From positions 6,758,001-6,822,000 of the forward strand of contig NC_071331.1 of NCBI RefSeq assembly GCF_010183535.1: a stretch of DNA of 64,000 nucleotides, in the 5' to 3' direction. The stretch's first letter is position 1; each line of letters opens with the position of its first letter. Both the position numbers and the translations under genes were made by a program. Of this stretch, positions 487-63,726 are shown piece by piece. The stretch comes from Caenorhabditis remanei. Taxonomy: Eukaryota; Nematoda; Chromadorea; Rhabditida; Rhabditidae. The notes below the pieces were generated by a model. The model saw only the letters and a program-made list of their open reading frames with translations, was not told where the DNA came from and did no database searches.

Positions 487-489
487 GTG

Positions 490-38170: not shown

Positions 38171-38234
38171 ATATAATTCGAATGTTCGTACAAAATTCAG
38201 TTCAATTTTTTGAGCAGGGCCGTCAGGTTCATTC

Positions 38235-38982: not shown

Positions 38983-41900
38983 TCAAGACGCGTATTGATT
39001 CTGAAAATTGTTATGATGATGTGGATAATTTTGTGGGTTTTGGTTGTAGAAATATGGTTGAGGTGGGGGAATGTCTTGAGAATATGGGTAAGTTTGATCT
39101 ACATTTTGAGCGGGAAAATTGTAATATTGGGGTTGTTGATAGAGTTGAGGATAGTTGATATTTGGAGTATAACCAGCGTTAAGAGGTGGATAACCGGGTG
39201 GAGGGGGGAAGTTATAAAATGTTGACGGATTCTGATTGGAACACGATGGTTGCTGATCGTAGACTGGTCTCGCAGCGACCGGTGGTACTGTAGGTACTGT
39301 AGGAGGATGAGCAACTCCATTACTGCTCACACCATTCTGTATCGTAGATGCATCATAATTCAGGCCCATCAGATGATTCTCGGCGTGATTGTTCTGAAAA
39401 AATGGGGAATTTCGAGATAAGATGAAATGATACAAGTACCATTGGTGCAGTGCTGGTGGGATGGTATTCATCTGGGGAGGAGAGGGAAATAGAGGAGGAC
39501 GGTGCCTGGAAACGAGCAAACAGATGGAGGGGTTAACATGGGGGAAGAGAGGGGAGAGGGGACGGAGTTGGATAGGGTGTCATGAATAGTACTTTCAGCA
39601 AAAAATTTTGTGTTCTTAAAGCTGCGATTTTTTCTAAAACACGGTAACTAACAAAATAAATAATTTCCGTGTTTATACATGTTTAAAAACGGTAAATCGG
39701 TGAATCTACATTGACAAAAAATATGAAGGTAACAAGAAACTGGTGGCACCGTAACTCTTTCAGATTTATCAAAACTGTGAAACAGAATACAAAACTGACT
39801 TTGAGAACAAAGTGAATAGACTTTAGTTTTCAAGCAAATTTTCTTATTGATAAAGATTGTCACAGAATGGATTGTCCGAAAAGTTATAGCTCTACGGTGT
39901 TATTTAACGTTTCAAGAGATCCACATAAGTCGACAAACGTGTTTTAATGAATTCATGGAGAATAATTGTCAATTTAAGTGGTCAGCTCAAAAACGTGCTC
40001 GAAGTAGAAAGAGCACGGCGTATAGATATGGAAAACTGGTTTGATGAGAGGCCAGCTGGGTAATCCTCCAAAAAACGAGCACACAATCTGCTGTCAAGTT
40101 AACTATTTGAATTTATTATTCACGTGAATAATTATATTCCAGTATCGCTAAAAAGTTTCATTACAAATTTCTCCAACGTTCTGTATAATTTATTAGGTAA
40201 GTATCACTCTGAAAACATGTCTAGGTTAAAATCGGGTAATCCTTAACATATTCTCTAAGATTTTTATTTCCAGCTGGAAACGTTCAAAAACTAATATGTT
40301 CTGTTGGCATTGTATGTTTCAAATTCTCTATAAGTTTCAGAACTATCTGCATTATTTAATGGATAAGTTGATGGTGGGCACCAGTTTCATCAACCTTATA
40401 GATTTGTCTGAAACTATGCTATTCTATCGGGGTGGGTAGCACATGCAACAAAACACCAAAGAACAAATATGTGCCCAGAAGTAAAACTCACTCTCAAATC
40501 ATCCAACATTTCCGTAATATAGAAATTATTCGGTGGTTGTAGAAGTCGGAAGTTCTGTCGGGCAGGTTCTTCACTCTCCTCGTCTATAGTTGCTTGCCGT
40601 TTCTGGAATTTCTGATAATCCGATGGGAAAATTTAGACGGGATTACTTATGGACTCCCAAAAATTTAAAGATTGCACACTTCTAATGATAAAACCTTCAA
40701 AATTCCAAAAAAAACCCTTACCAACAAAGCCCTCGGGGGTGGAACTCGATCAGTCTGGGTACTAATTTCCTTCTTCTCAGTCAACGCCTTTTCCAGACTC
40801 AACGCTGCCAACTCATCGACTTCCTTGAAAAATGGTTCAACAGTGAAGCATCCGAACAGATCAGTCAACAAAGGAATTTCACCTTGATTCGAAAATGTTT
40901 GAGCGAATTGGAGATTCTCGCTCATCGCGTTGGCTAGTTCCTGAAAGAAATTTTCTGTTTTAAGAAGTCGTTTCATTTTTTGGGGATTATGATTATAATA
41001 TTTCTTGTACAAATTACTCACCGTAACAGTAGCCAACGACAACAGAATATGCCCATAGCAAACATTCGGTGTGGGGCTTAACCTAACTTCCTTGACAATT
41101 GAAAACAAGCAATCCGCTATTCGATTTCTCAACTCCACTATCTTCTCAAAAAGTGAATCCGACACATCCTTCGCCAGGGGATTCAAACAAATCATTGCAT
41201 TCACACAGACTATTTCCTCTTCTCTCATTCCATACTCCCTGTAAACCGCTACGAGTTCATTGAGCGCCCGTTCGACAAGCCCGTTTCCAAGATGACTGAA
41301 ATAAGGAATTAGTTGGGGGCGTAAGAGTTGAAAGGGCCTTACTAAGTGTCTTCATATAGTTTAGAGATATTTCTCGGTACATATGCAAAATTACAGAGAC
41401 GTCTTGGCAGGCTTCAGCGGTCCTGGCGCAGAAGTTGAAGACCATCAGGGGAGCGAAGGAGGATTTTATGAGTGCTATCTGAAAATGTGGTGTAGATTGT
41501 AGGTCAACTCTTTCAGATTAATTACCTTATCATCCACGGTTAAGTGTCCCAACAATGGCGATAAGCTCTCGACCCAATCAATAGCCGCAATCAATCTCCT
41601 ATACGCAATCGCACACAACTCATCATTTCCAGCCATTCGATATGTTTCATATCTCATTTCCGTTCGTTTTCCCTTCAAACTAATCGGTGTCTCCACAATA
41701 TTCCTCAATTTATCAATCCCTTTTAGTGGATACAACTTCGATGCCTCCTGCTGAGTGTCTCCTTTCATAACTTTTGTCTCAATATTCAACAAAGTCATGA
41801 GTATAGTTCTCATGTCAACTGTCATCTTCTTCATCCATTCCTCAAGTGTTTTTGTGGTCCTGCGACGATCAGTTAGGTCACATGAGGCTACGGTAGTTGT

Positions 41901-43601
41901 GGGTTTACGTGGTTCTGGAGGAGTTATTAAAAATTTTTTAGATTATTCTACCGGTCTACGTGTGGAGAAAGGAAAGTTAAAAATACTCACAAGCAGGATT
42001 CATTCCTTCTCGAAGGCACTTATTGAATAGACAACTCCTGCATTGGATTTTTTCTGAAAAATGGATATATTTAGAAACAATATTAAGCTGTATACATACC
42101 TAGGCTACCAATTTTTCAACATTCTGGAATCATTTTTCTGTTTCCAGAACTTTTTGAATTATAACTGTCTGAATCAAACTAATCGGGTCCATTTTTGTCC
42201 ATCTTTGAAAATTTATTTTTACTAACTGTTAATCGAAATAATTTGAAGGTTCTTAATCACACCAGTTCTAAAATCGCTGGTTCTAAAATGGCTGTTTTCC
42301 AGCCCACTTTGTCCAAATGTCATGTTTCAGCTAGTTTTTATTTTCGTGCTTGAAAAATTAATTTTTGCCACTATTTGTCGTAGCGTTTTTTCCCGCTTCT
42401 AGTGCTTCTTGAATTAGAACCGGTCGGATCGAAATTAATAACGAACAGATGTGTCAACTGTAATTTCAATTCTTCAATTCTTGCTTTTTGTTTTTGACGG
42501 TTCTAAAACGGGTGGCTTTAATTCAAACAGTTATGAAACTGTTCGCAGTTTTTCAGTCCAATTTGTACAAAATTTCTGTTTCAACTAGTTTTTATTTTAG
42601 TGCTTAAAACTGATTAAACATTAGATTAGGTCCCCTCTCGCAAAAACTATTCTACGAGCTTTGAACACGAAGCAATTTCAGAGACACAAGATGCAGAAAC
42701 GCGAAAATAATATGTGGAATGTGTGTTCCAAGACAATTTTTATAGAACGCAATTACTAAAAACCATTTTTGCATTACACAGTTGAAACTTAATCAAAACA
42801 CTACCTTTCAAATAACTCATTTCCTTCATGATTTCTTCAATTCATCAATCACTCAGCTCAATGCAAAAATCCACAAAACTCACGCAAAACACTAACTGTA
42901 CACTCTCCATTCGCCGCACATTCCAACTGATCCGCCTTGAGAAGTGCTCGACGGAAAAATCCTTTACATCCGACACAACTGAGAGCTCCATAGTGTTGGG
43001 CGGCTTTTTCGGCTCCGCAGACCTGAACATTTTACTTTTTTATTCTGCTTTTAAAAGTTTTTAATTTGAACAGACTGGTGTAGTATGGGTTAAAAATGTT
43101 TCTTCATTTCTCCAAAGTTAGTCCACCTCATCAGAAGTCTGATTCAAAACCAAACAACAAATATTTCCCTATTTTCCGTTCTCTTCCCTTTTCATCGGAT
43201 TACCGAATTGAGGGTAGTTTGCATCATCATCGAATCAGTCTACTTCCTTTTTTTTTTGCAAAATCACGTGGACAAATTTGTTCTGTACTTTGACAACAGT
43301 TTCTAGTTTGGGGAATTTCAGATATGTAGCATACTTATTGTTCAAGTTAAAAAAATTGTACTGAGAAAACAAAAAACTTACTCTACAAAGATTCAAGGAG
43401 GCACTTGAACTACTTGTACTTAATGGATTGCTGTCTTCCGTTTCTTCATCGGAATCTGGAAAAAAGTTAATGTTTCAGTATAGTTTTATTAAAAATTCTG
43501 TACAGGAATATATAATTACGAAAAGGAAATTTTATATACTTACCATTCAAAGTGATCACATTATTTTCGACGGTTCTATTTACATTTTGACCAGAAGCCA
43601 T
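38983..43601 (-). pseudogene. Nuclear hormone receptor copy 1 (most complete of four; two frame lesions)
   Basis: Exons: 43544-43601 (ATG, MASGQNVNRTVEN), 43382-43455, 42884-43022 (first zinc finger, P-box CVGCKGFFRR), 41991-42053 (second finger, IQCRSCLFNKCLREGM), 41526 to about 41920, about 41342-41478, 41022-41295, 40722-40940 (end of the ligand-binding domain, LLTDLFGCF), 40492-40602, 39440-39505, 38983-39393 (Tyr/Gln/Asn/Pro-rich tail ending QYAS). All DNA-binding cysteines are present. Two lesions are visible. Exon 5 has lost its usual acceptor, so the next AG would give an immediate TAA. Exon 6 has lost 13 nt near 41400 relative to copies 3 and 4, which shifts the frame into a stop after splicing. 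A donor 40 nt further on (GTACCG) could restore the frame at the cost of about 15 residues. Thus it is a likely pseudogene, or a gene with altered splicing. Confidence 0.7.
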
Positions 43602-44354
43602 CGATTGAAATACTAGTGAATTTTATGATTTGGCACCAGGGGGCCTGGAAAACAGAGTTTGGATAAGATTTCAATCGTAACAGCAGTTTGAAAAAATAGA
43701 AAGTATTGAAAATGGTTTGTGAATACAGTGGAGAAAATAATTCAAATGCTAAAATCTGGTTTTGTAACAGAGATTTTATGACAGAAACAGTTGAAATTAT
43801 GATTACATTTTATCGGAGTTTTTTTTAAAAATTTTATGGTTGTTCAATCTAATATGAAATTAATTTTTGTACATTATTTAAAAAAATTGTTTTTTTTCCA
43901 TAAATAGGCTTTATGAAACAGCAAAATTAAAACGGTTGATATCGATTTCACTGATGCATAATTATGTTCTTAAACTTATCATAACATTGAAGTGGTGAAT
44001 TTTCTAACAAAACTGAAATTCTGGCAGGCTTCAAAAGAGCTAGTTGCTGGACAAAAACTGCTGTATGACTGATTCAGCTATGAAAACTTTCCGGATCAAT
44101 GAGTTTTTGCCCTTTAATGAAAATAAATATGTTTCATGGAACAGTGATCTCCGAAAAATGGAATTAGTGGCTCAACTTCTTTGAGATTGTACCGTTTTCC
44201 ATTTCGATTCACTCATGAAAAACTAATCTTGTAACTCATGCGTAACTAAAAAACGAAACTTATTATAATTTTGAATAGGTCAATTTTATTCAAAAAACTT
44301 AAATTCTGACTACTTCCAAAAGAAACCATCAAAAACTTTCTATACCAGAGAGCT

Positions 44355-44457
44355 TACCGTAAAAACTGTAATATAGGCGCATGCGCCTCTGTTTTTCAAA
44401 CCTCGTTTGCATACGCGCCTCTATTACAGGGGCGCTTCTATTGCAGTTTTTACGGTA
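44355..44457. mobile_element. 103-bp MITE with TACCGTAAAAACTG ends, paralogous empty site known
   Basis: TACCGTAAAAACTG / CAGTTTTTACGGTA inverted ends enclose GGCGCATGCGCC-type sequence. The homologous place in the copy 3/4 spacer (near 57705) reads straight through from AGAGCT to CAAAATAATTGAG without the insert, so it transposed after the units duplicated. It lies upstream of copy 1 and downstream of copy 2. Confidence 0.8.
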
Positions 44458-47400
44458 GCAAAATAATTGAGCTCCTGACTACAATCTGATCGGAGAATTT
44501 TTTTTCGTTAGTGTCAATGAGAAAATAGTTAACTGAAACTGAGAATTATTTCTGAATTGAACCTAAAAACGGTAAAATTTCAAGCTTAAAAACACATTTG
44601 GAACACCATCGGGTCAGACTAATTGAGCACAGTGCATTTTCTGTTTCATTGAGTTTCCGAAATATTACATACTAATAAACACATCCGGCCAAAAATAATG
44701 TTTGATTTATGGGCAGGCCAATCCGACCATGTCTGCTGGAAAATAATTAGATAAAAATTCATTACGCAAGTAAAAGAAAAACATTAGCAAAAATCAAAGA
44801 GAAGATGTTACACGTAAAAATCATCTGGAAAGTGTTGAAAAGAATGGAACGAATTATGCCACCGGAAAAGTGAAAGAGCACACAAAAAGAAATACAATAA
44901 GCCTATTCAAGACGCGTATTGATTCTGAAAATTGTTATGATGATGTGGATAATTTTGAGGGTTTTGGTTGTAGAAATATGGTTGAGGTGGGGGAATGTCT
45001 TGAGAATATGGGTAAGTTTGATCTACATTTTGAGCGGGAAAATTGTAATATTGGGGTTGTTGATAGAGTTGAGGATAGTTGATATTTGGAGTATAACCAG
45101 CGTAAAGAGGTGGATAACCGGGTGGAGGGGGAAGTTATAAAATGTTGACGGATTCTGATTGGAACACGATGGTTGCTGATCGTAGACTGGTCTCGCAGCG
45201 ACTGGTGGTACTGTAGGTACAGTAGGAGGATGAGCAACTCCATTACTGCTCACACCATTCTGTATTGTCGATGCATCATAATTCAGGCCCATCAAATGAT
45301 TCTCGGCGTGATTGTTCTGAAAAAATGGGGAATTTCGAGATAAGATGAAATGATAAAAGTACCATTGGTGCAGTGCTGGTGGGATGGTATTCATCTGGGG
45401 AGGAGAGGGAAATTGAGGAGGAGGGTGCCTGGAAACGAGCAAACAGATGGAGGGGTTAACATGGGGGAAAAGAGGGGAGAGGGGACAGAGTTGGATAGGG
45501 TGTCATGCATAGTACTTTCAGCCGAACAATTTGCTCGTAAGTTTTTGAGTTCTTAGAACTGATAGTGAGATTGAAGAACAATTACTTTAACAGTAAAATA
45601 AAATATATAAGTTACAGGTTTAAACAAGTTCAGAAACGGCAAACCGGCTAATCTACATTGTCAAAAAAGTTAAGCAACAACTAACTGTTGGCACCATAAC
45701 TTTTCCAGGTTTAACAAAACTGTGAAACTGAATACGGAGCAGGAATTGAGAGAAAAGTAAATAAATATAATCTTAAAAAACTTTGTACTGCTCCATGACA
45801 ATATTTAACGTTTCAAGTGAACCACATAAGTCTACAAACGTGTATTACTGAATGGACGCGATCTATTTTGTTGTGCAAAAATTGATACAATAAGGAAACT
45901 TGTGACTGAGTGAGAAAGTCTAACTGCAAGTTAACTGCATATTAATTCGGGAAAAAGAATGGCGAATTTTTTAGCTCCGCAAAACCACAATCTATCTGTT
46001 TAGTCATGTCCTGTGTGAAACGGTAAACCAGTTGATCTGATTCAAATTGAAGAAATTGGTGACACAGTAACTTCTCCAGATTTGAAAAAGTTATGAAACA
46101 GATTTTAAATTGTCCTCCATAAAAATAAAACCAATTCCACAAGTAAACCGCGGTAGCTACAATCGTTTTCGTCCCGGTTTGGTCTGGACCGGACAACACG
46201 AAGGAGGACAAGCCTGTATTGGCTCGTGTGATTTGTTTGCAAGAATGTTTTTGTTCTTTATATGTATATGATGATTTAAAATACCTCCGTTTTGAGTTAT
46301 CAATAAACCTGGTACGATATTTATGAGAAAAAAAACTATTCAAGAAAAACAATCGGCCCGGGTTGGTCTATAAAAGTTGTAAACAAAAAATGGTGATTCA
46401 CATATATTTATCACTTTTAGCTGAATTTATCTGTTTCCAATTCTCCAAAAAGTTTCAAGCTGACTGATAGAGTTTATTGAATTCGTGATTCAGCAAAACA
46501 GTTTTATTCACTCTACAAATTATTTCATCGTTCTGAGTGATTGATGATTGGTAAGCCCATTTAATAAATGTTCACGATGAATCGGATAATCAATGGCATA
46601 CTCTCCAAGATTTTTATTCCCAACTGGAAACGTTTAAAAACTAATAAGTTCTGTTCGAATTGTATGTTTCAAACTCTCTATAAGTAGATAGCGAAAATAA
46701 TTTGCTAATGGCAGTGTTTCATCAACTTTACACATATGTTTGAAGCTTTGACTGATAGTTAATATCTCAATCGCAAAGTATACACGTCTTCTTTTCTGAC
46801 TAACACATGGAACAAAACACCAAAGAAAAAATATGTGCCCAAGAATAAAACTCACTCTCAAATCATCCAACATTTCCGTGATATAGAAATTGTTCGGTGG
46901 TTGTAAAAGTCGGAAATTCTGTCGGGCAGGTTCTTCACTCTCCTCGTCTATTGTTGCTTGCCGTTTCTGCGATTTCAGATAATCTTACGGGAAAATTACT
47001 CTTCGATTTTAAGTTGAAAAAAAAAATTAAAACCACTCACCAGCAAAGCCCTCGGGGGTGGCACCCGATCAGTCTGCGCACTAATTTCCTTCTTTTCAGT
47101 CAACGCCTTTTCCAGACTCAACGCTGCCAACTCATCGACTTCCTTGAAGAATGGTTCAACCGTGAAGCATCCGAACAGATCAGTCAACAGAGGAATTTCA
47201 CCTTGATTCGAAAATGTTTGAGCGAATTGGAGATTCTCGCTCATCGCGTTGGCTAGTTCCTGGAAGAAATGTTCTGTTTCAAGAAGTCGTTTTCTTTTTT
47301 GGGGTTGTGATTATTACAATGGATGTAAAATGGTTGTCGGAATAACCCACCGTAACAGTAGCCAATGACAACAGAATATGCCCATAGCAAACATTCGGTG

Positions 47401-47895
47401 CATACTTGTCACGGGCCGGGCCGGGCCGGGCCGGGCCCGCTAAAAAAATCTTCCGGCCCGGCCCGGCCCGGCCCGTTCGGCCCGTCAAAATATTGAAAAA
47501 AAAATTTTTCGTCGTTTTCCCATTGTTTTTTCGTTTACTACTTTATGGCAAACATATTATTGATTAGAAATTATAAAAAGACAACAAGTGCAAACGGAGA
47601 TTGTCAGAATAAGTTATTTTGTCACTATAAACTTTGAGCTTCTCAAAGTCTCTGTGATTATCAGCCGATGATCAGAATCAGGATCAAGAACTTGCTGGAG
47701 GCTTCTGAAAGTAGTCTAATCGAATCCCCCGACCTTGATTTAGTATAGACCGAAGAAAAAATTTAATTTCCAAGACTTTCAATTCTATTTTTCAAAAATA
47801 ATTTTTTGGTTCCGGGCCCTGAAATTTTCAGCGGGCCCGGCCCGGCCCGGCCCGGGCCGGGCCCAAACGGGCCGGCCCGTGATTTGACAAGTATG
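47401..47895. mobile_element. 495-bp hAT-like MITE inserted in an NHR coding exon
   Basis: CATACTTGTCACGGGCC at the left and GGCCCGTGATTTGACAAGTATG at the right, followed inward by GGGCCGGGCC runs. The perfect 8-bp duplication ATTCGGTG (47393-47400, 47896-47903) lies within the codons for SPTPNVCYGH of copy 2; copies 1 and 3 show the uninterrupted site. Confidence 0.96.
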
Positions 47896-48350
47896 ATTCG
47901 GTGTGGGGCTTAACCTAACTTCCTTGACAATTGAAAACAAGCAATCCGCTATTCGATTTCTCAACTCCACTATTTTCTCAAAAAGTGAATTCGACACATC
48001 CTTCGCCAGTGGATTCAAACAAATCATTGCATTCACACAGACTATTTCCTCTTCTCTCATTCCATACTCCCTGTAAACCGCTACGAGTTCATTGAGCGCC
48101 CGTTCGACAAGCCCGTTCCCAAGATGACTGAAATAAGGAATTAGTTGGAGGAATCTGATGGGAGAAAAGGCCTTACTAAGTGTCTTCATATAGTTTAGAG
48201 ATATTTCTCGGTACATATGCAAAATTACAGAGACGTCTTGGCAGGCTTCAGCGGTCCTGGCGCAGAAGTTGAAGACCATGAGGGGAGCGAAGGAGGATTT
48301 GATGAGCGCTATCTGAAAATTTTGAAAAATGTTTCAAAGCTATTTGATGT

Positions 48351-48865: not shown

Positions 48866-51142
48866 TTTCAATTAGTTTGATTACCTTATCATCCACCGTC
48901 AAGTGCCCCAACAACGGTGACAAGCTCTCCACCCAATCAATAGCTGCAATCAATCTCCTATACGCAATCGCACACAACTCATCATTTCCAGCCATTCGAT
49001 ATGCTTCATATCTCATTTCCGTTCGTTTTCCCTTTAAACTAATTGGTGTCTCCACAATATCCCTGAATTTATCAATCCCTTTGAGTGGATACAACTTCGA
49101 TGCCTCCTGCTGAGTGTCTCCTTTCATAACTTTTGTTTCAATATTCAACAAAGTCATGAGTATAGTTCTCATCTCAACTGTCATCTTCTTCATCCATTCC
49201 TCACTTGTTTTTGTGGTCTTGCCACGATCGGTTAGGTCACATGAGGCTACGGTAGTTGCGGGTTTACGCGGTTTTGGAGGAGCGTCTCGGTTCGGGCGAA
49301 CAACTGGAATGATGGACGTTTCAAATAGAACTTTTCAAGGTTTCAGAGAGTTTAAAAAAAAACAATGAGATTATTCCACCGTACTGTGTTAGAAAAAAGG
49401 AAGTAAAAAAACTCACAAGCAGGATTCATCCCTTCTCGAAGGCACTGGTTGAATCGACAACTCCTGCATTGGATTTTTTCTGAAAAATTATATATTTGGA
49501 AAAGATAATACGTATACCGATTATACTCATTTTTCCGTTTCCAGAATTTCTTGAATTATGACTGTCTCAATCACAACTAATGATCCACTTTTTTATCGAA
49601 TTATTTCTATTAACTGTGAATTGAAAAAAAAGTTCTATCATATTTTGAAGGTTTTCAGTCAAACCGGTTCTGAAACTGGCGTTTCTAAATCGATCGTTTT
49701 CCAGCTCACTTTGTACAAACTTCCTGTTTCAGCAAGCTTTTCTTCACGTGCTAAAAACGCATAAAACGTTAAAACAAGTCCCTCAAATGTATGAACTGCA
49801 CAAAAACCTTTAAAAATTTTATTTAATACACTTTTATTTAATAAAAAAACGCAACAATATGCATATTTTTCCGTTTCAAGTTGTTCGCAATATTAGAACC
49901 GGTCGGATGGCAATTAATCAACTCTTGACGGTTCTAAAACGGGTGACTCTTACTTAGAAGATTATGAAAGTGTTTCCAGTTTTGCAGTCGACTTTGTACA
50001 AAATTTCTGTTTCAACTAATTTATATTCACGTTTTCGAAACTCATCAAACGTTAATTCAGTGCCTTCTTTCACTTAGTTTTTATTCATTTGTTCGAAACT
50101 GATGGAACATTGTATAGAATCCCGCTTTATGGACACTACATATTGTGCTGTCTGACACCGAGCTGACCACTTTTTCGAAAAAAAAAAACATTCTATCGTT
50201 ATTTTCGTCATAACGAATGACTCTCAATGCCAAAATATACACACCCAACACCAAATCAAAGTTTCTATTGTCGTTTTCGAAAATCTTCGAAAGTTTTTCT
50301 ACTCGCTCCATACGTATTCACGAACACCAATACCTATGATCACAAAGAAATTTTCAGAGACACAAGATGCAGAGACGCGAAAATAATGTGTGGAATGTGT
50401 GTTCCAAAGGAATTTTTATAGAACGCAATTACTAAAAACCATTTTTGCATTACACAGTTGAAATTAAAGCCTTAATCAAAACACTACCTTTCAAATAACT
50501 CATTTCCTTCATGATTTTTTCAGTTCATCAATCACTCATCTCAATGCAAAAATCCACACCCAAATCGAGAAAACTCACGCAAAACACTAACTGTACACTC
50601 TCCATTTGCCGCACATTCCAACTGATCCGCCTTGAGAAGTGCTCGACGGAAAAATCCTTTACATCCGACACAGCTGAGAGCTCCATAGTGGTGGGCGGCT
50701 TTTTCGGCTCCGCAGACCTGAAATTATTATTTATTTAAATGTACATTTTTTCAGTTTTTGAAGTTTTTATTTTGAGCAGTCTGGTGTAGTATGGGTTAAA
50801 CGTTTTTTCTTTATTTCTCCAAAGTTAGGCCATCTCATGAGAAGTCTGATTCAAAACCAAATAAAAAATATTTCTCTATTCTCTGTTCTCTTCTCTTTTC
50901 ATCGGATTACCGAACTGAGGGTAGTTTGCATCATCATCGAATCAGTCAACTTCTTTTTTTTTCAAAATCACGTGGACAAATTTGTTGTGTATTTTGACAA
51001 AATTTTCTAGTTTGGGGAATTTCAGATATGTAGCATACTTTTTGTACAAGATAAAGAAAAATTACCCTACAAAGATTAAACGAGGCACTGGACTACTTGT
51101 ACTTCCGAGATTGCTGTCTTCCGTTTTTCATCGGAATCTGGA

Positions 51143-51812
51143 AAAAGAAAAAAAGATGTTTCAGAAAAGTTTTATTTCAATTACTGCTTAGCTGCTAGGC
51201 AAAAATTACTGTATGAGCTGAATCAGCTGTGAAAACTTTCCACATTAATGAGTTTTTGCCAATTCATGAGAATAAATCTGCTTCATGGAACAGTGATAAT
51301 GAGACACGAATTACTACCCAATTTTATTGGATATGTCCGATATACTCATTTACTCATTTATTCATTTGTTTTTATATAAATATGTGAAAACATAGAGAGA
51401 AATCTGTACACTAAACGGAGAATTTTGTGGTAGAGCAAAATGAATTTTCCGTTTTATCGACTTTCCGAAATATCACAAAATTGAACAAAAAAATTAGTGA
51501 TTGGACATGCCGCTAATCTAGCAGCCAATCTCGGTTCCATATGTAATCTAAATGATGATAAAGAGTTTTTGTGATAAAAATACTTTCGTGAAACAGAGGA
51601 AGTTTAAAAGAAATTTAGGATAGCGAATAAAGTAAAAGAGCCGGTTTTATGAAAAAATGAAAGAATCGCATAACTCTGATATTCGTTTTATAAAGATGAA
51701 GGTACTTATTTTTATGTATGAAAAAAATATAGAATGGGACATACCTTACATAGTCTCAGGGTTCTTTTGCTCTGGAACCCAGGATGTTAGTGCTGAGAGC
51801 ATATTCAGAATA
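51143..51812. other. Spacer between NHR copies 2 and 3
   Basis: Matches part of the spacer upstream of copy 1 (TGAAAACTTTCC..., ATGAGTTTTTGCC) but is rearranged and shortened. No gene. Confidence 0.45.
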
Positions 51813-52843: not shown

Positions 52844-53085
52844 CTATTTTTAACATTTCATAAAACTTGTAAAGTATTTTTGTTTGAATTGCTGAGCCGT
52901 GATATTCGGAACTACCTTTTCATAATTAAATAAAAGTTCATTACGCACGAAAAAGAAAAACATTAGCAAGAATCAAAGAGAAAGAGTTACACGTAAAAAT
53001 CATCTGGAAAGTGTTGAAAAGAATGGAACGAATTATGCCACCGGAAAAGTGAAAGAGCACACAAAAAGAAATACAGTAAGCCTAT

Positions 53086-54862
53086 TCAAGACGCGTATTG
53101 ATTCTGAAAATTGTTATGATGATGTGGATAATTTTGAGGGTTTTGGTTGTAGAAATATGGTTGAGGTGGGGGAATGTCTTGAGAATATGGATAAGTTTGA
53201 TCTACATTTTGAGCGGGAAAATTGTAATATTGGGGTTGTTGATAGAGTTGAGGATAGTTGATATTTGGAGTATAACCAGCGTTAAGAGGTGGGTAACCGG
53301 GTGGAGGGGGGAAGTTATAAAATGTAGACGGATTCTGATTGGAACACGATGGTTGCTGATCGTAGACAGGTCTCGCAGCGACTGGTGGTACTGTAGGTAC
53401 TGTAGGAGGATGAGCAACTCCATTACTGCTCACACCATTCTGTATCGTAGAGGCGTCATAATTCAGGCCCATCAGATGATTCTCGGCGTGATTGTTCTGA
53501 AATAACGGGGAATTTCGAGATAAGATGAAATGATACAAGTACCATTGGTGCAGTGCTCGTGGGATGGTATTCATCTGGGGAGGAGAGGGAAATTGAGGAG
53601 GAGGGTGCCTGGAAACGAGCAAACATTTTTTTCCTGAAAGAAATTTTCTATTTTAAGAAGTCTTTTTCTTTTTTGGGGTTGTGATTATTACAATGCATTC
53701 GGGAATGTTGTGCAAATGACTCACCGTAACAGTAGCCAATGACAACAGAATATGCCCATAGCAAACATTCGGTGTGGGGCTTAACCTAACTTCCTTGACA
53801 ATTGAAAACAAGCAATCCGCTATTCGATTTCTCAGCTCCACTATCTTCTCAAAAAGTGAATCCGACACATCCTTCGCCAGGGGATTCAAACAAATCATTG
53901 CATTCACACAGACTATTTCTTCTTCTCTCATTCCATACTCCCTGTAAACCGCTACGAGTTCATTGAGCGCCCGTTCGACAAGTCCGTTTCCAAGATGGCT
54001 GAAACAAGAAATTAGTTGGAGGAATCTGATGGGAGAAAAGGCCTTACTAAGTGTCTTCATATAGTTTTGAGATATTTCTCGGTACATATGCAAAATTACA
54101 GAGGCATAACACGTTTTCGTCTTGGCAGGCTTCGGCGGTCCTGGCGCAGAAGTTGAAGACCATAAGGGGAGCAAAAGAAGATTTGATGAGTGCTATCTGA
54201 AAATGTTGAAAACTGTTTCAAAACTTTTTTATGTAAATAGTCGGAAAAATAGTTTGATTTTGTTCAAAAAGAATGATTACCTTATCATCCACTGTCAAGT
54301 GTCCCAACAACGGTGATAAGCTCTCCACCCAATCAATAGCTGCAATCAATCTCCTATACGCAATTGCACACAACTCATCATTTCCAGCCATTCGATATGC
54401 TTCATATCTCATTTCCGTTCGTTTTCCCTTCAAACTAATCGGTGTTTCCACAATATCCCTCAATTTATCAATCCCTTTGAGTGGATACAACTTCGATGCC
54501 TCCTGCTGAGTGTCTCCTTTCATAACTTTTGTCTCAATATTCAACAAAGTCATGAGTATAGTTCTCATCTCAACTGTCATCTTCTTCATCCATTCCTCAC
54601 GTGTTTTTGTGGTCCTGCCACGATCAGTTAGGTCACATGAGGCTACGGTAGTTGTGGGTTTACGCGGTTTTGGAGGAGCGTCTCGGTTCGGAATGATGAA
54701 CTTTTCTAATATAAGTTTTCAAGGTTTCAGAGAGTTATAAAAAAATAATGAGATTATTCCACCGTACTGTGTTAGAAAAAAGGAAGTAAAAATAGTCACA
54801 CGCAGGATTCATCCCTTCTAGAAGGCACTTGTTGAATCGACAACTCCTGCATTGGATTTTTT
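53086..54862 (-). pseudogene. Nuclear hormone receptor copy 3 (lacks 5' exons and two 3' exons)
   Basis: Present: 54800-54862 (second zinc finger; donor changed from GTGAGT to GTGACT), 54281 to about 54695 (ligand-binding domain start), 54048-54196 (exon 6, with the 13 nt that copies 1 and 2 lack, giving an open ACQDENVLCLCNFAY frame), 53725-53998, about 53543-53608 and 53086-53496 (tail, intact to QYAS). Missing: the start exon, exon 2 and the first zinc finger (deleted between about 56990 and 57010 relative to copy 1) and the two exons that end the ligand-binding domain (junction at about 53626-53634). It cannot make a receptor. Confidence 0.88.
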
Positions 54863-55051
54863 CTGAAAAATGGATATATTTAGAAACAATATTAAGCTGT
54901 ATACCTAACATAGGCTACCAATTTTTCAACATTCTGGAATCATTTTTCTGTTTCCAGAACTTTTTGAATTATAACTGTCTGAATCAAACTAATCGGGGCC
55001 CATTTTTGTCCATCTTTGAAAATTTATTTTTACTAACTGTTAATTGAAATA

Positions 55052-56299
55052 TTAGGGTGTTTCAAAAGTCTTTGCACTTTTTCTATCAATTTTCATCAAA
55101 TTTTTCTTAATGAGAAACGAGTTCTAATAAGTTATATATTGTCCATGAGTACTGGTTACATCTTGCCAACATTGTGGTAGTTGGGCAATTCCGGCCGCGT
55201 AGAACTATGGCGGCTGTGAGCTGGAGAAGTGATCAAGGTATGATTTCACTTGCATTCGACCATCGAATTTTTGTCCAGCTAACGAGTTTTACAATGATCT
55301 AAAAAGATGATAATCAGCTGGAGGGAGGTATGGAAAATACGCCAAATGGGGAAGAACTTCAAGTCCCTGACCCTGTAAGTAGGTGCAAGCCTTGGTAGCA
55401 GTGTGTTGGCGTCCATTGTCATGCAACAAAGCCAAATGATTGATTTCCGGGTGAGAGGAGCGATGAAATCGGATCATTTTTTGGATTTGTTGACAGTAAA
55501 TGTCGGCTGTTATTGTACCATGTTCCGGAAGAATTTCGTGGTGAATGACACCGTTGCTGTGGCACCAAACCGATAGCATAACTTTTTTCTCATGCAGCTC
55601 TCCTTTCTACCCCGTCAGAGATTCTTCATTAGCCAGAACCCACAGCTTTTTACTGTATGGTATACATAGAGACCCCATTTCTCATTTTCCGTAATAATAT
55701 CAAAAATCCAATTGAAACTACGCTTGCCACTGAGGGAAGACAGCGACAGGTCACATCTGAGCTTTAACTGAGCATCTGTCAGTTCATGAGAAATAACTTG
55801 TCCGTATTTTGCTGTTCTTCCAGAATCTTTCAGATGTCTGAATATTGTTGCGAATGAAGTACCAGTATGTGAAGATACTTCACGTACACTTGATCTAGGC
55901 TCATCCTCCAAGACATCAGTGATATCATCGTCTTTATCTAAACGAGGGTGCCCAGAACGAGAGTTATCTTTAAGATTGTAGTCTCCTTCTTTGAAGTTTT
56001 TGGACCAAGTCGCTACTGTCCAATAAGATAGGATATCCTCAGCAAGAGTTTCGCTTATATTTCGATAAGTTTCCATTGTACTCAATCCTAGGGAATAACC
56101 TAGTAGAAAACACCCATTTAGAGCTTTGCGATCTTTGGCGCGTACTTCTGCCGTGGTACGCTGTTCTGGGGACTTGCAAAACATAAATGTTTCTTGGGGG
56201 TAACAGTAATAGTTAATAATAAAAAAAGGACAAAAAAATGTCATGGGGTCAAAGGGCAGTACATTGAAAAAAAGTGCAAAGACTTATGAAACACCCTAA
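55052..56299 (-). mobile_element. mariner-family transposon, 1248 bp, TA target duplication
   Basis: TTAGGGTGTTTCAAAAGTC and its inverted match at the right end (GACTTATGAAACACCCTAA) are the terminal repeats. TA flanks both sides (55050-55051, 56300-56301). The orthologous position in copy 1 (near 42238) reads GAAATAATTTGAAGG without the insert, a clean empty site. The length fits mariner (about 1.3 kb). It lies in the equivalent of the first long intron, upstream of copy 3's remaining 5' exon. Confidence 0.95.
55289..56244 (-). pseudogene. Inactive mariner transposase
   Basis: Two open segments on the minus strand, 55615-56244 and 55289-55579, are separated by stop codons and a frame change at about 55580-55614. 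The first has a mariner N-terminal helix-turn-helix region and the RSGHPR linker motif; the second has the HDN(x)RxH-type motif (LLHDNGRQHTA) and the DYHLFRSL block near the C-terminus. The catalytic aspartate of the (V/I)TGDEKW motif is Asn here (TENEKW), and the last one, normally SPDL, is Tyr (FPYL). With two of three metal-binding residues changed and a broken frame it cannot be active. Confidence 0.92.
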
Positions 56300-56301
56300 T
56301 A

Positions 56302-58042
56302 ATTTGAAGGTTCTTAATCACACCAGTTCTAAAATCGCTGGTTCTAAAATGGCTGTTTTCCAGCCCACTTTGTCCAGATGTCCTATTTCAGCTAGTTTTT
56401 ATTTTCGTGCTTTAAACTCATCAAACGTTAAAAAGATACAATATTGACATTATTGAGCTGTGTTACACCGAGCTGACCATTTTTTTTTTGAAAAATTAAT
56501 TTTTGCCACTATTTGTCGTAGCGTTTTTTCCCGCTTCTAGTGCTTCTTGAATTAGAACCGGTCGGATCGAAATTAATAACGAACAGATGTGTCAACTGTG
56601 ATTTCAATTCTTCAATTCTTGCTTTTTGTATTTGACGGTTCTAAAACGGGTGGCTTTAATTCAAACAGTTATGAAACTGTTCGTAGTTTTTCAGTCCAAT
56701 TTGTACAAAATTTCTGTTTCAACTAGTTTTTATTTTAGTGCTTAAAACTGTATGAACATTAGTTTAGGTCCCCTCTCGCAAAACCTTTTCTACGAGCTTT
56801 GAACACGAAGAAATTTCAGAGACACAAGATGCAGAAACGCAAAAATAATATGTGGAATGTGTGTTCCAAGGCAATTTTAATAGAACGCAATTACTAAAAA
56901 TCATTTTTGCATTACACAGTTGAAATTCAAGCCAAAAAACTTCTGTTTCAAACAACTCCTTTCATTCCTGACTTGTTCGATTCATCGATTCATTTATCAA
57001 GAAAACTTTATGATTTGGCACCCGGTGGATCTGGAAATTTTTTTAAATAAGATACTAACAAAAGCAGTGTGAAAAAAATTGAAAGTGTTGAAAATGGTTT
57101 GTGAATACAGTGGAACAATTATTGATCAAATGCTAAAATACGGTTTTGGAATTGAGATTTTATGACGGGAACAGTTAAGATTAAAGTAGTATTTTTATCG
57201 GAGTTATTTTTAAATTAACGAATGTTTATCCACTAATAAAACAATTAACTTTGTCCATAAATAGGCTTTATGGAACAGCAAAATTAAAACGGTTGATTTA
57301 GATTTGACTGGTGCATAATTATGTTCTTAAACTTATCATAAATTTGAAATGGTGAATTTTCTAACAAAACTGAAATTCTGGCATGCTCCATAAGAAGCTA
57401 CCCGTTATCCAAAAATTACTGTATAAGTTGATTCACTTGTAAAACACTTCTCATATCAACTCATGAAAGTAAATGTTTCATAGAACAGTGATTATAAAAA
57501 TACTCCGAACAAACTAATTGCAATTTAAAATTAAATTTGTTTATTTCGTACCGTTTTTTCTTCGATTCACTCAGCATGTTCTGTTCATCTAACTCATTCG
57601 TGTTCATTAATTTATTATAATTATGAATAGGGTAATTTTATTCGAAAAACTCTAACTCTGACTACCTCCAGATGAAGCTAGCAAAAACTTTCTATACCAG
57701 AGAGCTCAACAAAATAATTGAGTTCCCGGCTGCGCCGCTTCTTTTATTTAAATTATCAGGAAAGTTAATGGAAACAAAGTTTTACAAAAAAAAAAATCGG
57801 GAGAAGTCTGATTTGGATCACAGTGATTTTTTTCGTTAGTTTCAATTATTAAATGGTTAAATGAAACCGAAAAATGTTTTTTGACTTAAACCTAAAAACG
57901 TTAAAATTTCAAGCATGAAAAAAGACACAAATTCGGAGTACTATTATAGTTGAGCAAAATGCATTTTTTGTTTCATTGATTTTCCGAAATATCACAAAAT
58001 TTTCGAAAAAATTAGTGATCGTAGAAAATTTAACTGATGTAG
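56302..58042. other. 5' flank of NHR copy 3 with remnants of the DNA-binding-domain intron
   Basis: Follows the copy 1 intron closely up to about 56985 and then jumps to sequence that in copy 1 lies upstream of the start codon (TTTATGATTTGGCACC), which defines the deletion of the first three exons. Contains two CTGTTTCA words (56714, 56943). No gene. Confidence 0.65.
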
Positions 58043-58593
58043 CAGAGCTGTGCGGAAGTAAAATTTTCAAAAAAGGAAGAAGGAAGAAGGAAGAAGGAAT
58101 AACATTTTCAAAAAGGAAGAAGGAAGAAGGAAGAAGGAACGAAAATTTTCAAAAAGGAAGAAGGAAGAAGGAAGAAGGAAGTGAAAAAAGCCCGGAAGAA
58201 GGAAGAAGGAAGGAAGAAGGAAGGAAGAAGGAAGTTGGGCTCCAAACCGGGAAATCGGAAGTTAATTTTGAAAATGACAAATTTGAGGAAACTTTTTTCT
58301 AGTCATCTCTGAAAACGAATTTTGATGTTGTTTCATACAAAATTCCGTCAAAAACCCCCAAAATTCCGCCAAAATTCCGTCGAAAATTACAAAATTTTTG
58401 TGAACTTTTAACACGGAAGTCGAACAATTTCAACGGAAGAAGGAAGAAGGAAGAAGGAATAAAATTTCAAAAAAGGAAGAAGGAAGAAGGAAGAAGGAAT
58501 AAAATTTCAAAAAAGGAAGAAGGAAGAAGGAAGTGAAAAAATGCCCGGAAGAAGGAAGAAGGAAGAAGGAAGAAGGAATTCCGCACAGCTCTG
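58043..58593. mobile_element. 551-bp hAT-like MITE, GGAAGAA family
   Basis: CAGAGCTGTGCGGAA / TTCCGCACAGCTCTG terminal repeats with a perfect 8-bp duplication TGATGTAG (58035-58042, 58594-58601). Both ends are followed inward by arrays of GGAAGAAGGAAGAA separated by AAAATTTTCAAAAA, and the centre is unique AT-rich sequence. The open frames rich in KEEGRRK or FFLLPSS are by-products. Confidence 0.95.
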
Positions 58594-61500
58594 TGATGTA
58601 GTCAAAAATAATGTAAAAATTATGGGCAGGCCAATCCGAGCATGTCTGCTTGAAAATAATTAGATAAAAGTTCATTACGCAAAAAAAAAACATTAGAAAG
58701 AATCAAAAAGAGAAAGAGTTACACGTAAAAATCATCTGGAAAGTTGAAAAGAATGGAACGAATTATGCCACCGGAAAAGTGAAAGAGCACACATAAAGAA
58801 ATACAGTAAGCCTATTCATGACGCGTATTGATTCTGAAAATTGTTATGATGATGTGGATAATTTTGAGGGTTTTGGTTGTAGAAATATGGTTGAGGTGGG
58901 GGAATGTCTTGAGAATATGGGTAAGTTTGATCTACATTTTGAGCGGGAAAATTGTAATATTGGGGTTGTTGATAGAGTTGAGGATAGTTGATATTTGGAG
59001 TATAACCAGCGTTAAGAGGTGGGTAACCGGGTGGAGGGGGGAAGTTATAAAATGTAGACGGATTCTGATTGGAACACGATGGCTGTTGATCGTAGACTGG
59101 TCTCGCAGCGACTGGTGGTACTGTAGGTACTGTAGGAGGATGAGCAACTCCATTACTGCTCACACCATTCTGTATCGTAGAGGCGTCATAATTCAGGCCC
59201 ATCAGATGATTCTCGGCGTGATTGTTCTGAAATAACGGGGAAATTCGAGATAAGATGAAATGATACAAGTACCATTGGTGCAGTGCTGGTGGGATGGTAT
59301 TCATCTGGGGAGGAGAGGGAAATTGAGGAGGAGGGTGCCTGGAAACGAACAAACAGATGGAGGGGTTAACATGGGGAAGAGAGGGGAGAGGGGACGGAGT
59401 TGGATAAGGTGTCATGCATAAAAGTTTCAGAAAAACGATTTGCTCGTAAGTTTTTGAGTTCCTAGAGCTGATAGTGAGATTGAAGAACAATTACTAAAAA
59501 AGTAAAATAAAATATTGTTACAGGTTTAAACAAGTACAGAAACAGTAAACCGGCTAATCTACATTGTCAAAAAAAGTTAAGAAACAACTAACTGTTGGCA
59601 CCATAACTTTTCCACGTTTAACAAAACTGTGAAAGAGAATGCATAACATTAATTGAGAGCAAGTAAATAGGTATCGTTGCTTTCAAGCGGGTACTCTTAT
59701 TTTTCAATCGCAAAAAAGAGTTTATGCAGCTCCACGGTGTTATTTAACGTTTCAAGTGATGAATGTAAGTCTATAATCTGTTACAGTTTATTGGATCCAA
59801 ATGTCTTCTAGGTCCGCTAAACACTTTCAATTACTCTAAAAATTATTTCAACGTTCTGCAAAACTTATTGGTAAGCTTAAAAATATTTCGGTTAAGAAAT
59901 GTTCAAAAACGAATATGTTCTGTTGGTATTGTATGTTTCAAATTGTCTATAAGTTCATGATCTACACATCTGTCTTAATATTTTGATATTGAGCCAGCGG
60001 AAATACTTTGCTAATGATAATGTAAACCAGTTTCATCAACTTTACAAATCCGTTTGAAGTTTTGATTGGTAGTAGTTATTGTCTTTTTGGAGTCTGGACA
60101 TGGCTTCTACTTTTCTAACTAACACATGCAGCAAAACAAAAATGAACAAATATGTGCCCAAAAGTAAACTCACTCTCAAATCATCCAACATTTCCGTAAT
60201 ATAGAAATTGTTCGGTGGTTGTAAAAGTCGGAAGTTTTGTCGAGCAGGTTCTTCACTCTCCTCGTCTATAGTTGCTTGCCGTTTCTGCAATTTCAGATCA
60301 TCACTTGGAAAAGTTACAAGCGATTGATTATCGACATCTGGATGTGCCAAACTGAAAATTTAGGAATCCCGAGAGGGACGTTTCCGATTTTTTTTTGGAA
60401 ATTTAGGAACGTAAAAAAGTTCTGAAAAGTGTCGGAAATTTCGAAAGTTCCGGAATTTCAGATTTCCGTTTCGCACGTTCTTGACCGACATACCCCATCA
60501 AAATTAGAAACCAACAAAGCACTCACCAACAAAGCCCTCGGGGGTGGCACCCGATCAGTCTGTGTACTGATTTCCTTCTTCTCAGTCAACGCCTTTTCCA
60601 GACTCAACGCTGCCAACTCATCGACTTCCTTGAAGAATGGTTCAACAGTGAAGCATCCGAACAGATCAGTCAACAGAGGAATTTCACCTTGATTCAAAAA
60701 AGTTTGAGCGAATTGGAGATTCTCGCTCATCGCATTGGCTAGTTCCTAAAAAAAACTTTCTGTTTGAAGACGTCGTTTTGGTTTTCAGGTTTGTTATCTA
60801 ACAGTTGTATGTTTTGGATCACTGTCCTAGTAACTCCCTGTAAACCGCTACAAGTTCATTGAGCGCCCGTTCGACAAGCCCGTTTCCAAGATGACTGAAA
60901 TGAAGAATGAGTTGGGGGAGAATGATAGGAGACAGGGTCTTACTAAGTGTCTTCATATAGTTTAGAGATATTTCTCGGTACATATGCAAAATTACAGAGG
61001 CATAACACGTTTTCGTCTTGGCAGGCTTCAGCGGTCCTGGCGCAGAAGTTGAAGACCATAAGGGGAGCAAAGGAGGATTTGATGAGTGCTATCTGAAAAT
61101 TTGATGTAGTTTGTAGTTCAACTCTTTTTTACCTTATCATCCACCGTTAAGTGTCCCAACAATGGCGATAAGCTCTCCACCCAATCAATAGCCGCAATCA
61201 ATCTCCTATACGCAATCGCACACAACTCATCCTTTCCAGCCATTCGATATGCTTCATATCTCATTTCCGTTCGTTTCCCCTTCAAACTAATCGGTGTCTC
61301 CACAATATCCCTCAATTTATCAATTCCTTTGAGTGGATACAACTTCGATGCCTCCTGCTGAGTGTCTCCTTTCATTACTTTTGTCTCAATATTCAACAAA
61401 GTCATGAGTATAGTTCTCATCTCAACTGTCATCTTCTTCATCCATTCCTCACGTGTTTTTGTGGTCCTGCCACGATCAGTTAGGTCACATGAGGCTACGG

Positions 61501-62709
61501 TAGTTGCCGGTTTACGCGGTTTTGAAGGAGCGTCTCGGTTCGGGCGGACAACTGAAATGATGGGATTCTCGAATAACATTTTTCAAGGTTTCAGAGAGTT
61601 ATTAAAAAAATAATGAGATTATTCTATCGTTTTATGTGAGAAAAAAGAAGCAAAAATACTCACAAGCAGGATTCATCCCTTCTCGAAGGCACTTGTTGAA
61701 TCGACAACTCCTGCATTGGATTTTTTCTGAAAATATTATTTATATAGTTGAAACAGTATTAAGTTGCACCAACATCCAGTTTGACATTTTTCAACATACT
61801 ATTATAGAATCCTGTTATTCGTTTTTCTGTTTCCAGAACTTTTAAAAATTTGACTGTCTGAATCAGAACTAATAATCTTCAGTTACGTTCTTTAAAACTC
61901 TTTTCACTTAAATTTTTATTTATTAATTGTGAATTGAAATCTTTTGTATAACGGTTCTAATTTGAAGGTTTTTAGTCATACCGGTTCTAAAACGGGTGGT
62001 TCTGAAACGGCGATTTTCAAGCTTTTTACTACTTTCCTGTTTTAGATAGTTCTTATTCATGTTTCCGAAATTCATCAAACGTGGAACCAGGTGCCTACAC
62101 AAAACTGCACAACAACAACATTGACAATATACATTGAGCTGTCTGACACCGAACTAACCACTTTTTCGAAAAATGAGTCTCTGGCGTTTATTCCCGTTTC
62201 AAGTGCTTTTTGAATTAGAACCGCTCGGATCGAAATTAATAGAGTAAACATATTGATAGATTAGAATAAACTGTAATTTGAAGTCGTCAGTTTTTGCTTA
62301 TTGTATTTGACGGTTCTAAAACGGGTGACTCTAATTCAAACGGTTAGGAAGCAGATATAAGTTTTCCAGCCCACTTTGTACAAAATTTCTGTTTTAGTTA
62401 GTTTTTATTCACGTTATCGAAAATTATCACACTTTTTTTTCAGGACTCCTTTGGATTCACAAACATTAAATGCATTCAACAGGGAACAAATTCCAGATCC
62501 TCCAAAATAATGCTTAGAAGATAATGTGTTTTAAGAGAATGTCATTAGAGCGCAATTACTAAAAACCATTTCTGCAATACATGATTGAAATTCAAGCCAA
62601 AAAAAAACACTTCTGTTTCAAATAACTCATTTTCTCACTGCACTTTTCAATTTATCAATTCTTTTATCAAGTTTAATACCAGCTTAATGTCAAAATAATA
62701 AACCCAACT

Positions 62710-63726
62710 CACGGCGGGGCAGCCGCGACGCGCGGACTCCGCAGCCAAATTCCTCGGCCCCGATGAGGCGGCGCGCGAAATTCAAACGCCAATTTTTCTC
62801 ACAAAGCGCGCTGACAGGCTTTTCCACGTTTTCTGGAAAGTATTGGATATATTTAACACATTACAGATGATGTTAACTGAAACAGACAATTTTACAATAG
62901 TGCAAATTATGGAGTAACAAAAAATCTCGATTATAATTACTTTTTATCAAAGAAAACGAGTATTTTGAGAAAAAAGGTCATTTTCTAAAAAACTGAACTG
63001 GATTTTTTGCTGAAACAGTTTTCTAAAGTAAAATGAGGGTCTAGAATTCAATAAAAACATCAGTTTCGGGCTATTGAAACATTTTGAAGGTTGTTTTTCT
63101 TTGAAAATGTCGAAAAATTAGAGAAAAAAACAATAAATTATTTATTTTCTCAAAAACTGAACTGGATTTTTTTCTGAAACAGTTGTCTAAAGTAAAATGA
63201 GGGTCTAGAATTTGATTAAAACATCAGTTTCAGTCTATTGAAACATTTTGAAGGCCGTTTTTTTGGAAAATGTCGAAAAAATAGGCAAAAATAGTTTATT
63301 TTTCAATTTTTTTCAAAAACTGGACTGGATTTTTTGGTGAAACAGTTCCCTATAGTAAAATCAGGCTATAAAATTTAATAAAAAGATTAGTTTCAGTCGA
63401 TTGAAACATTTTGAAGGTCTTTTCAGTTTATTTCTCACATCAACACAAACTTCTAAGCCCTCACACTTAATTTTCCATATACGTTATCTGAATTAGTGTT
63501 TTTATTTTCGTTCAAAGCAATTTTTGCCGATAAAGTCTTTTTCTCACAAAAAAAACCACATTTTATCATTTTTTATGTGGTTTTCTGCACTTAAAATCAT
63601 TTCTATATCATTTTCGGGTTACTGCATACACGAGTCCGCAATCACCGTGTGAAGTGTACACAACTTTTTCGGCTGAGTATTTAATGCGGATTTTTCTAGG
63701 CCACGCGTCGCCTCAGCCCCGCCGTG
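62710..63726. mobile_element. 1017-bp element with CACGGCGGGGC ends
   Basis: Imperfect terminal inverted repeats of about 26 bp (CACGGCGGGGC, then CGACGCG, then GG at both ends) with a 5-bp duplication CAACT (62705-62709, 63727-63731). The GC-rich ends contrast with an AT-rich interior. It sits in the long intron between the two zinc-finger exons of copy 4 and is absent from the same intron in copies 1-3. No transposase is encoded; the superfamily is uncertain. Confidence 0.8.
62990..63420. repeat. Three tandem units of about 163 bp inside the CACGGCGGGGC element
   Basis: Each unit carries AACTGGATTTTTT, a GAAACAGTT word, AGTAAAATGAGGGTCTA or a variant, and TATTGAAACATTTTGAAGG. Units start near 62990, 63158 and 63318. 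Each includes TGAAACAG, the complement of CTGTTTCA. Confidence 0.85.

Follow-up and report, generated by a model that had tools for sequence, protein, structure and literature searches.

The left half of chromosome IV of Caenorhabditis remanei PX506 contains a tandem array of nuclear-receptor (NHR) genes in which the octamer CTGTTTCA recurs, which raises the question of whether the array is itself a piRNA-forming locus or lies by position within a larger domain of 21U-RNA (piRNA) genes. Type-I 21U-RNA domains are recognized by an enriched core octamer, by a YR start and 5' U (the motif known as YRNT) at a fixed distance from it, and by Mb-scale clustering on chromosome IV, on both strands. Further marks of such domains are a lack of piRNA genes where genes are active, 21-nt 5'-U small RNAs associated with PRG-1, and occupancy by PRDE-1/SNPC-4/TOFU-4/TOFU-5 with H3K27me3. 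We looked for the first three features in a 64-kb stretch of DNA (the window), in the surrounding 264 kb, and in samples from elsewhere in the genome. Within the window, the interval 39778-63345 had been credited by a sequence-only reading with about 16 octamers on both strands; the strands were right, with 9 octamers on each, and the count was slightly low, since there are 18.

Counting both strands, the exact octamer occurs 22 times in the window, compared to a mean of 3.88 (sd 1.88, maximum 9) in 100 dinucleotide shuffles of the same DNA. Paralogy among the sites, already noticed at 42576, 50007 and 56714, extends past these three, and the 18 sites of 39778-63345 collapse to 11 families. 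The enrichment persists after this collapse, since the 840 octamers with the letter composition of CTGTTTCA (itself among them) have on average 0.70 families and 0.95 raw sites in the interval, and the runner-up has 7 families. In the surrounding 264 kb, CTGTTTCA was found 132 times, placing it at the top of the 840 permutations (mean 10.9) and at 4.9 times the order-3 Markov expectation of 26.9. An excess of this kind might simply follow from AT-rich composition or from the presence of the nematode splice acceptor TTTCAG, and 6 of the 22 window octamers do precede a G, and so contain the acceptor sequence. However, the shuffles, the permutations and the Markov model all fail to explain the count, the right half of chromosome IV has no octamers in 24 kb of similar GC, and the acceptor-like control TTTTCCAG is followed by YRNT at the spacing described below in 7.2 of 44 families, which is near the base rate. 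Both explanations were therefore rejected, and we give them almost no credence.

Offsets were counted from the first base of the octamer, and the predicted 21U-RNA begins with the U of YRNT. A scan for the octamer together with its downstream signals, as suggested in the sequence-only reading, placed YRNT at offset 42 or 43 downstream of 13 of the 18 array octamers, and of 15 of the 22 sites (9.33 of 15 families) in the whole window. Permuted octamers, used as a control, had YRNT at these offsets in 122 of 767 cases in the array stretch (0.159) and in 1347 of 8900 in the 264 kb (0.151). Tested against a base rate of 0.174, the array sites (not collapsed here) give a binomial p of 5e-7, and the window families, counted as 9 of 15, one of 3e-4. 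The two offsets were first noticed with a weight matrix made from all 110 flank sites (both flanks), and then held in families free of window members; the matrix was dropped as a test because right-flank paralogues of window sites raise the scores of such sites. Flank scores were instead taken from a model of 73 sites in 50 families, none shared with the window. Among 50 chromosome IV families that likewise share none with the window, 30.8 carry YRNT at 42/43, and a set of 52 families, drawn from the left flank and from the samples of chromosome IV, has a YRNT fraction of 0.24 at offset 42 and 0.37 at offset 43, versus 0.02-0.17 at the other 24 offsets in the range 30-55. Offsets of 42 and 43 imply a spacer of 37-38 nt, which falls within the range of ~35-42 nt described in C. 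elegans (PMC3597512). The available text of that paper does not contain the word YRNT, and the YR dinucleotide at the start is taken from PMC9683057. Octamers with one mismatch partly show the same spacing, with YRNT at 42/43 in 9.5 of 29 families for CTATTTCA and 11.3 of 25 for CTGTTTTA, so exact CTGTTTCA is not alone in having this spacing. YRNT was also raised at the permuted octamers TCAGTTTC (16.5 of 55) and ACTGTTTC (peak at offset 44), as expected if these overlap real sites, since both overlap the GTTTC core when shifted.

Window sites that combine octamer and YRNT are candidate 21U genes. The candidate at 42576-42642 (plus strand; octamer 42576-42583, offset 43, predicted 21U 42622-42642) has a flank score that beats all but <0.05% of random positions and belongs to a family with nine members in the 264 kb; by our reading it is non-exonic, and antisense to the NHR genes. 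Its close paralogue (96.4% over 307 nt) lies at 56714-56780 (plus strand; offset 43, predicted 21U 56760-56780). An apparent intron is shared by the candidates at 49724-49790 (plus strand; octamer 49724-49731, offset 43, predicted 21U 49770-49790) and 50007-50073 (plus strand; octamer 50007-50014, offset 43, predicted 21U 50053-50073, flank p=0.005), the first of which scores like random positions (p=0.26) and is located between exon-like pieces of the two NHR zinc fingers (49400-49555 and 50544-50699, minus strand). On the minus strand, the candidate at 39719-39785 (octamer 39778-39785, offset 43, predicted 21U 39719-39739, flank p=0.062) belongs to a nine-member family that also includes the one at 46035-46101 (minus strand; octamer 46094-46101, offset 43, predicted 21U 46035-46055, flank p=0.046), and a further candidate is found at 51531-51596 (minus strand; octamer 51589-51596, offset 42, predicted 21U 51531-51551, flank p=0.018). 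The candidate at 47274-47340 (plus strand; octamer 47274-47281, offset 43, predicted 21U 47320-47340, flank p=0.12) has five intact copies in the 264 kb and, as we read it, sits directly upstream of an NHR exon's apparent 3' splice site. At 54213-54278 (plus strand; octamer 54213-54220, offset 42, predicted 21U 54258-54278, flank p=0.002), the octamer is gapped in 6 of 8 aligned paralogous copies. The candidates at 56943-57009 (plus strand; octamer 56943-56950, offset 43, predicted 21U 56989-57009, flank p=0.018) and 62613-62679 (plus strand; offset 43, predicted 21U 62659-62679, flank p=0.027) are paralogues.

A weak candidate at 62819-62885 (minus strand; octamer 62878-62885, YRNT offset 43) has poor flanks (p=0.76), and the minus-strand octamers 63011, 63175 and 63338 lie in a ~163-nt tandem repeat (63011-63345) that has poor flanks, related copies near -38.3 kb, and YRNT only at 63175 (offset 42), and they count as weak evidence. 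YRNT is thus present at 49724, 62878 and 63175 with flanks no better than random. It is missing at 42/43 from 5 of the 18 array octamers, namely 63011, 63338, 43914-43921 (minus strand, flank p=0.082), 44641-44648 (plus strand, p=0.27) and 61749-61756 (minus strand, p=0.54).

The sharp contrast inside the window might suggest that the array is a special piRNA-forming locus in which receptor decay and duplication drive octamer gain, since 18 octamers in 24 kb stand beside 28.5 kb that contain none. The octamer-free flank seen earlier was confirmed, with no CTGTTTCA in 11325-39777, where the density elsewhere in the 264 kb predicts 15.9, and four farther left on the plus strand (286-11324), at 286, 599 (YRNT offset 42), 7653 and 11317 (YRNT offset 43). 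This interval also has no ATGTTTCA (10.4 expected), although CAGTTTCA is little reduced (8 versus 11.4 expected), and it holds exons of CNOT11, TFIIH Tfb2 and an HMG-box protein. However, the density is 0.65/kb over the whole array and 0.55/kb over the 111 kb leftward (Fisher p=0.39), with 17 independent families in the 78-kb array and 38 in the 111 kb. The contrast reflects a local hole in the domain at 11325-39777, and not the start of a domain at the array. Along chromosome IV, 4-kb samples at 1-12 Mb had octamers in 6 of 6 cases (20 in 24 kb), and those at 14-24 Mb in none of 6 (24 kb), so that octamers on both strands cluster on the Mb scale as judged from samples rather than a full count. 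The other five chromosomes yielded 4 octamers in 20 kb sampled, which is too little to fix a background. The proposal that the array and its spacers lie in a 21U domain is supported as to location, by octamer and YRNT spacing, and the narrower idea that the array itself is the domain finds no support in the comparison of densities. No octamer map of this kind for C. remanei was found in a limited literature search.

The array reads on the minus strand. Its first four units occupy 40668-61582, as copies of the ligand-binding stretch, which continue to C4 6.873 Mb and number 11 altogether; PF00104 matched 2 of 5 ORFs searched against Pfam from this region. The zinc-finger exon of the next unit (PF00105) lies at 63622-63885, minus strand, and a tRNA scan found none. 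The 132 octamers of the 264 kb form 71 families, with 87 of them in families of at least two members there (single linkage), and the same cassette is present in up to nine intact copies, alongside broken ones. Octamer sites in the array have paralogues somewhat more commonly than random positions (50 of 51 versus 363 of 431, Fisher p=0.005), and the ligand-binding stretch is interrupted by stops in several array copies, both of which would favor the special locus; introns were read through there, however, and the stops may be intronic. In contrast, octamer sites were duplicated no more than random positions to the left (43 of 61 versus 431 of 651) or right (8 of 20 versus 128 of 245).

Retention among paralogues tells against the special locus as well, since there was no excess conservation of the octamer, with 26 of 76 kept versus a null mean of 27.7 (sd 8.8), when ten of the 18 array sites served as references, a pair of which came from one family. 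With one reference per family (11 families), 27 of 78 were kept versus 27.2, and without collapse 59 of 147 versus 49.2, or 46 of 121 versus 40.7 when only array sites as far as 62613 are counted. Retention was uneven, being above control at 39778, 42576 and 44641, and below it at 47274, 51589, 54213 and 61749. Because other 8-mers are retained just as well as the octamer, and with density like that of the left flank, the suggested link between gene decay, duplication and motif gain found no support, there is no sign that cassettes were gained because genes decay, and a special locus seems to us very unlikely. The same figures would suit octamers that are mostly fossil promoters whose transcription has ended, as would the six-base core GTTTCA, whose retention (41 of 78 versus 32.3, sd 9.3) is not significantly raised. 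YRNT loss did not differ with octamer breakage, YRNT being present in 14 of 20 scorable array copies with a broken octamer and 29 of 39 with an intact one, excluding copies with indels in the octamer. However, a paralogue test inside one array has little power, and CTGTTTCA tops the 840 permutations and keeps its YRNT spacing across unrelated families, as one might see if selection is ongoing or the sites arose recently; we regard fossil promoters as unlikely.

The sequence itself shows the octamer excess, the fixed YRNT spacing, the presence on both strands, the sampled extent and the hole over housekeeping-type genes. The stretch very probably belongs to a domain of type-I 21U-RNA genes in the left half of C. 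remanei chromosome IV, with the array there by position. The domain is of an already known kind and reaches far beyond the window. By analogy with C. elegans and C. briggsae, from which transcription, processing, PRG-1 loading and chromatin state are extrapolated, live octamers would each bring in the upstream sequence transcription complex together with RNA polymerase II, the latter starting at the YR of YRNT, 42-43 nt past the first base of the octamer. A short capped precursor would result, and trimming would turn it into a 21-nt RNA whose first base is the U of YRNT, to be loaded on PRG-1. Promoter cassettes would be carried by the NHR tandem units in apparent introns and spacers, and since they ride in these units, they would multiply and diverge with the genes. 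Promoters appear to hitchhike on gene duplication, and the part of the receptor genes seems limited to taking some promoters with them. It is conceivable, though we hold it tentatively, that new 21U-RNA genes arise mainly when ordinary protein-coding gene units in the domain are duplicated in tandem and the 21-nt part then diverges, with the NHR array as a cassette multiplier. A tandem array inside a piRNA domain places intact and broken cassette copies side by side for observation, and the samples give a sequence-only outline of an octamer-rich region covering about half of the chromosome.

According to the available text of a review, 21U-RNAs of C. remanei are known from small-RNA sequencing, resembling the C. 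elegans ones in their features and exceeding them 2-3 times in number; this is the same species, and that text does not give chromosomal positions (PMC6468775). As far as the available texts describe them, the type-I clusters of C. elegans are alike in the core CTGTTTCA, the ~35-42 nt spacer, the Mb-scale clustering on chromosome IV, and subclusters interrupted by piRNA-free stretches (PMC3597512, PMC6436959). They differ in forming two regions, of 2.5 and 3.7 Mb, whereas the C. remanei samples, judged from sequence alone, are positive over the wider range of 1-12 Mb. C. briggsae is described as having the octamer with a YR start and a large left cluster on chromosome IV (0.02-7.1 Mb), but differs in having further clusters on IV (13-15 Mb) and on I (9.8-12 Mb) (PMC9683057); in C. 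remanei, the single 4-kb sample taken at 14 Mb of IV contained no octamers, and chromosome I was sampled at 9.0 Mb and the left end only. P-type piRNAs, as in Pristionchus, are reported from introns of active genes (PMC6436959), and some cassettes here likewise lie in apparent introns, but the cassettes here cluster densely and are absent from the stretch with housekeeping-type genes, which would be in line with the C-type (PMC6436959).

The window, at C4:6758001-6822000 on chromosome IV of C. remanei PX506, contained 22 exact copies of CTGTTTCA, the core promoter motif of type-I 21U-RNA (piRNA) genes in Caenorhabditis, compared with 3.88 obtained in shuffles of the same window. The array of tandem, minus-strand nuclear-receptor (NHR) genes held 18 of these octamers in the stretch at 39778-63345, 9 on each strand, so the excess described in the sequence-only reading stood, and its figure of about 16 was slightly low. 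A further 4 were detected by window scan left of a hole at 11325-39777, and exact search within the window found no CTGTTTCA in the hole itself, confirming an octamer-free stretch to the left of the array. Enrichment in the array stretch persisted when paralogous sites were collapsed into families, with 11 CTGTTTCA families remaining, against a mean of 0.70 and a next best of 7 among the 840 octamers composed of the same letters.

YRNT is the candidate start signal whose T/U is the predicted 5' end of a 21U-RNA. Around octamer sites outside the window, with distances counted from the octamer's first base, YRNT peaked at offsets 42 and 43 and was found there in 30.8 of the 50 families sharing none with the window. 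Within the window, YRNT occupied these offsets in 15 of 22 octamer sites (9.33 of 15 families), and in 13 of 18 in the array, the signal being absent from 5; permuted octamers, with the same letters rearranged, gave 1347 of 8900, and 122 of 767 in the array stretch alone. The excess was significant at array sites when paralogous sites were counted as independent (p=5e-7), and in the window after collapse (p=3e-4). Flank columns alone, excluding octamer and YRNT, also scored above random positions at the 22 window sites (p=6e-6, uncollapsed). The spacer of 37-38 nt falls inside the C. elegans range, given as ~35-42 nt (PMC3597512), and for C. briggsae a Y at 3 nt and an R at 2 nt upstream of the U are described (PMC9683057). 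We regard the octamer sites as candidate 21U-RNA promoters, none individually proven; the tandem repeat at 63011-63345 was weak as a candidate. This octamer-bearing repeat of ~163 nt, spanning 62861-63495, appeared again ~100 kb off, at about -38.6 to -38.1 kb.

The variant core ATGTTTCA, which in C. elegans is tied to female expression (PMC3597512), was present at 2.6 times Markov expectation, with YRNT spacing in 23.9 of 59 families. In the whole window, 10 of 22 ATGTTTCA sites had YRNT at 42/43; ten sites between 40314 and 59933 were on the plus strand, six of them with YRNT at these offsets. The ATGTTTCA site at 42322 was a paralogue of the CTGTTTCA site at 42576, and therefore the first base of the octamer changed among copies; this base is reported to alter germline sex bias in C. 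elegans (PMC3597512).

The array had been proposed to be a 21U-RNA domain itself, and the surrounding counts do not support this. The 264 kb surrounding the window contained 132 CTGTTTCA, the highest of the 840 permutations, and 15 reversed octamers (bins summed). The 111 kb of the left region had an octamer density of 0.55/kb, the hole (11325-39777) 0, the 78 kb of the whole NHR array 0.65/kb and the 46 kb of the right region 0.43/kb, with no difference between array and left region (Fisher p=0.39). Along chromosome IV, twelve small samples of 4 kb contained 5, 2, 6, 3, 1 and 3 octamers at 1, 3, 5, 8, 10 and 12 Mb, and 0 at 14, 16, 18, 20, 22 and 24 Mb; five 4-kb samples from other chromosomes contained 0, 1, 2, 1 and 0. 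The flank densities and the chromosome IV samples thus put the array inside a much larger octamer-rich region, which it does not start; it follows a hole. Genome-wide (130,466,896 bases, 186 contigs), there were 19,000 CTGTTTCA (9483 + 9517 by strand) versus 6,781 reversed octamers. On C. remanei chromosome IV, the octamer-rich half overlaps the left arm (C4 0-8.6 Mb), whose 1.447 cM/Mb is listed as the lowest recombination among autosome arms, the right arm of this chromosome having 3.615 (Table 1, PMC10461856). Since a review credits C. remanei with 2-3 times more 21U-RNAs than C. elegans (PMC6468775), this kind of domain is already known; our additions would be the chromosomal outline of the octamer-rich region and the NHR array as a putative multiplier, the whole domain reading being drawn from sequence.

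The hole lacked both CTGTTTCA (0 vs 15.9 expected) and ATGTTTCA (0 vs 10.4), and GTTTCA was reduced (24 vs 76), with CAGTTTCA only slightly depleted (8 vs 11.4). Exons of an HMG-box protein, of CNOT11 and of Tfb2, a subunit of TFIIH, lie within it. In C. elegans, piRNA-depleted H3K36me3 stretches are reported to break up the piRNA clusters (PMC6436959), and by analogy the hole may be one of these. Long open frames in the window, at 10046-11017, 25382-26572 and 38214-38498, were built from short tandem repeats, and are probably satellites rather than genes.

The NHR ligand-binding stretch was present in 11 copies from C4 6.799 to 6.873 Mb, and its best match elsewhere, among the 150 of 182 candidates that were scored, was 51% identical. 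Cassettes such as those at 49724 and 50007 lie, in our reading, between exon-like pieces of two zinc fingers, antisense to the NHR genes, and 8 of the 13 YRNT-bearing array sites were on the plus strand, opposite to the genes. The largest family of intact octamers had nine members, and octamers were retained in paralogous copies no better than other 8-mers. Because octamer sites to the left and right had paralogues roughly as frequently as random positions, copying together with host DNA is the simplest account of octamer duplication. In the array, 50 of 51 octamer sites had paralogues versus 363 of 431 random positions (p=0.005), and there may be a small additional effect in the array beyond host-DNA copying. 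The suggested link to gene decay found no support in our analysis of the array. Two NHR copies 32 kb apart (L019, C4 6826030-6826449; L022, C4 6858393-6858812) had the same score, identity and stop pattern against the query, suggesting recent duplication or conversion. A mariner-type transposase in two pieces (HTH_48, Transposase_1) was also found within the array, on the minus strand at 55292-56283.
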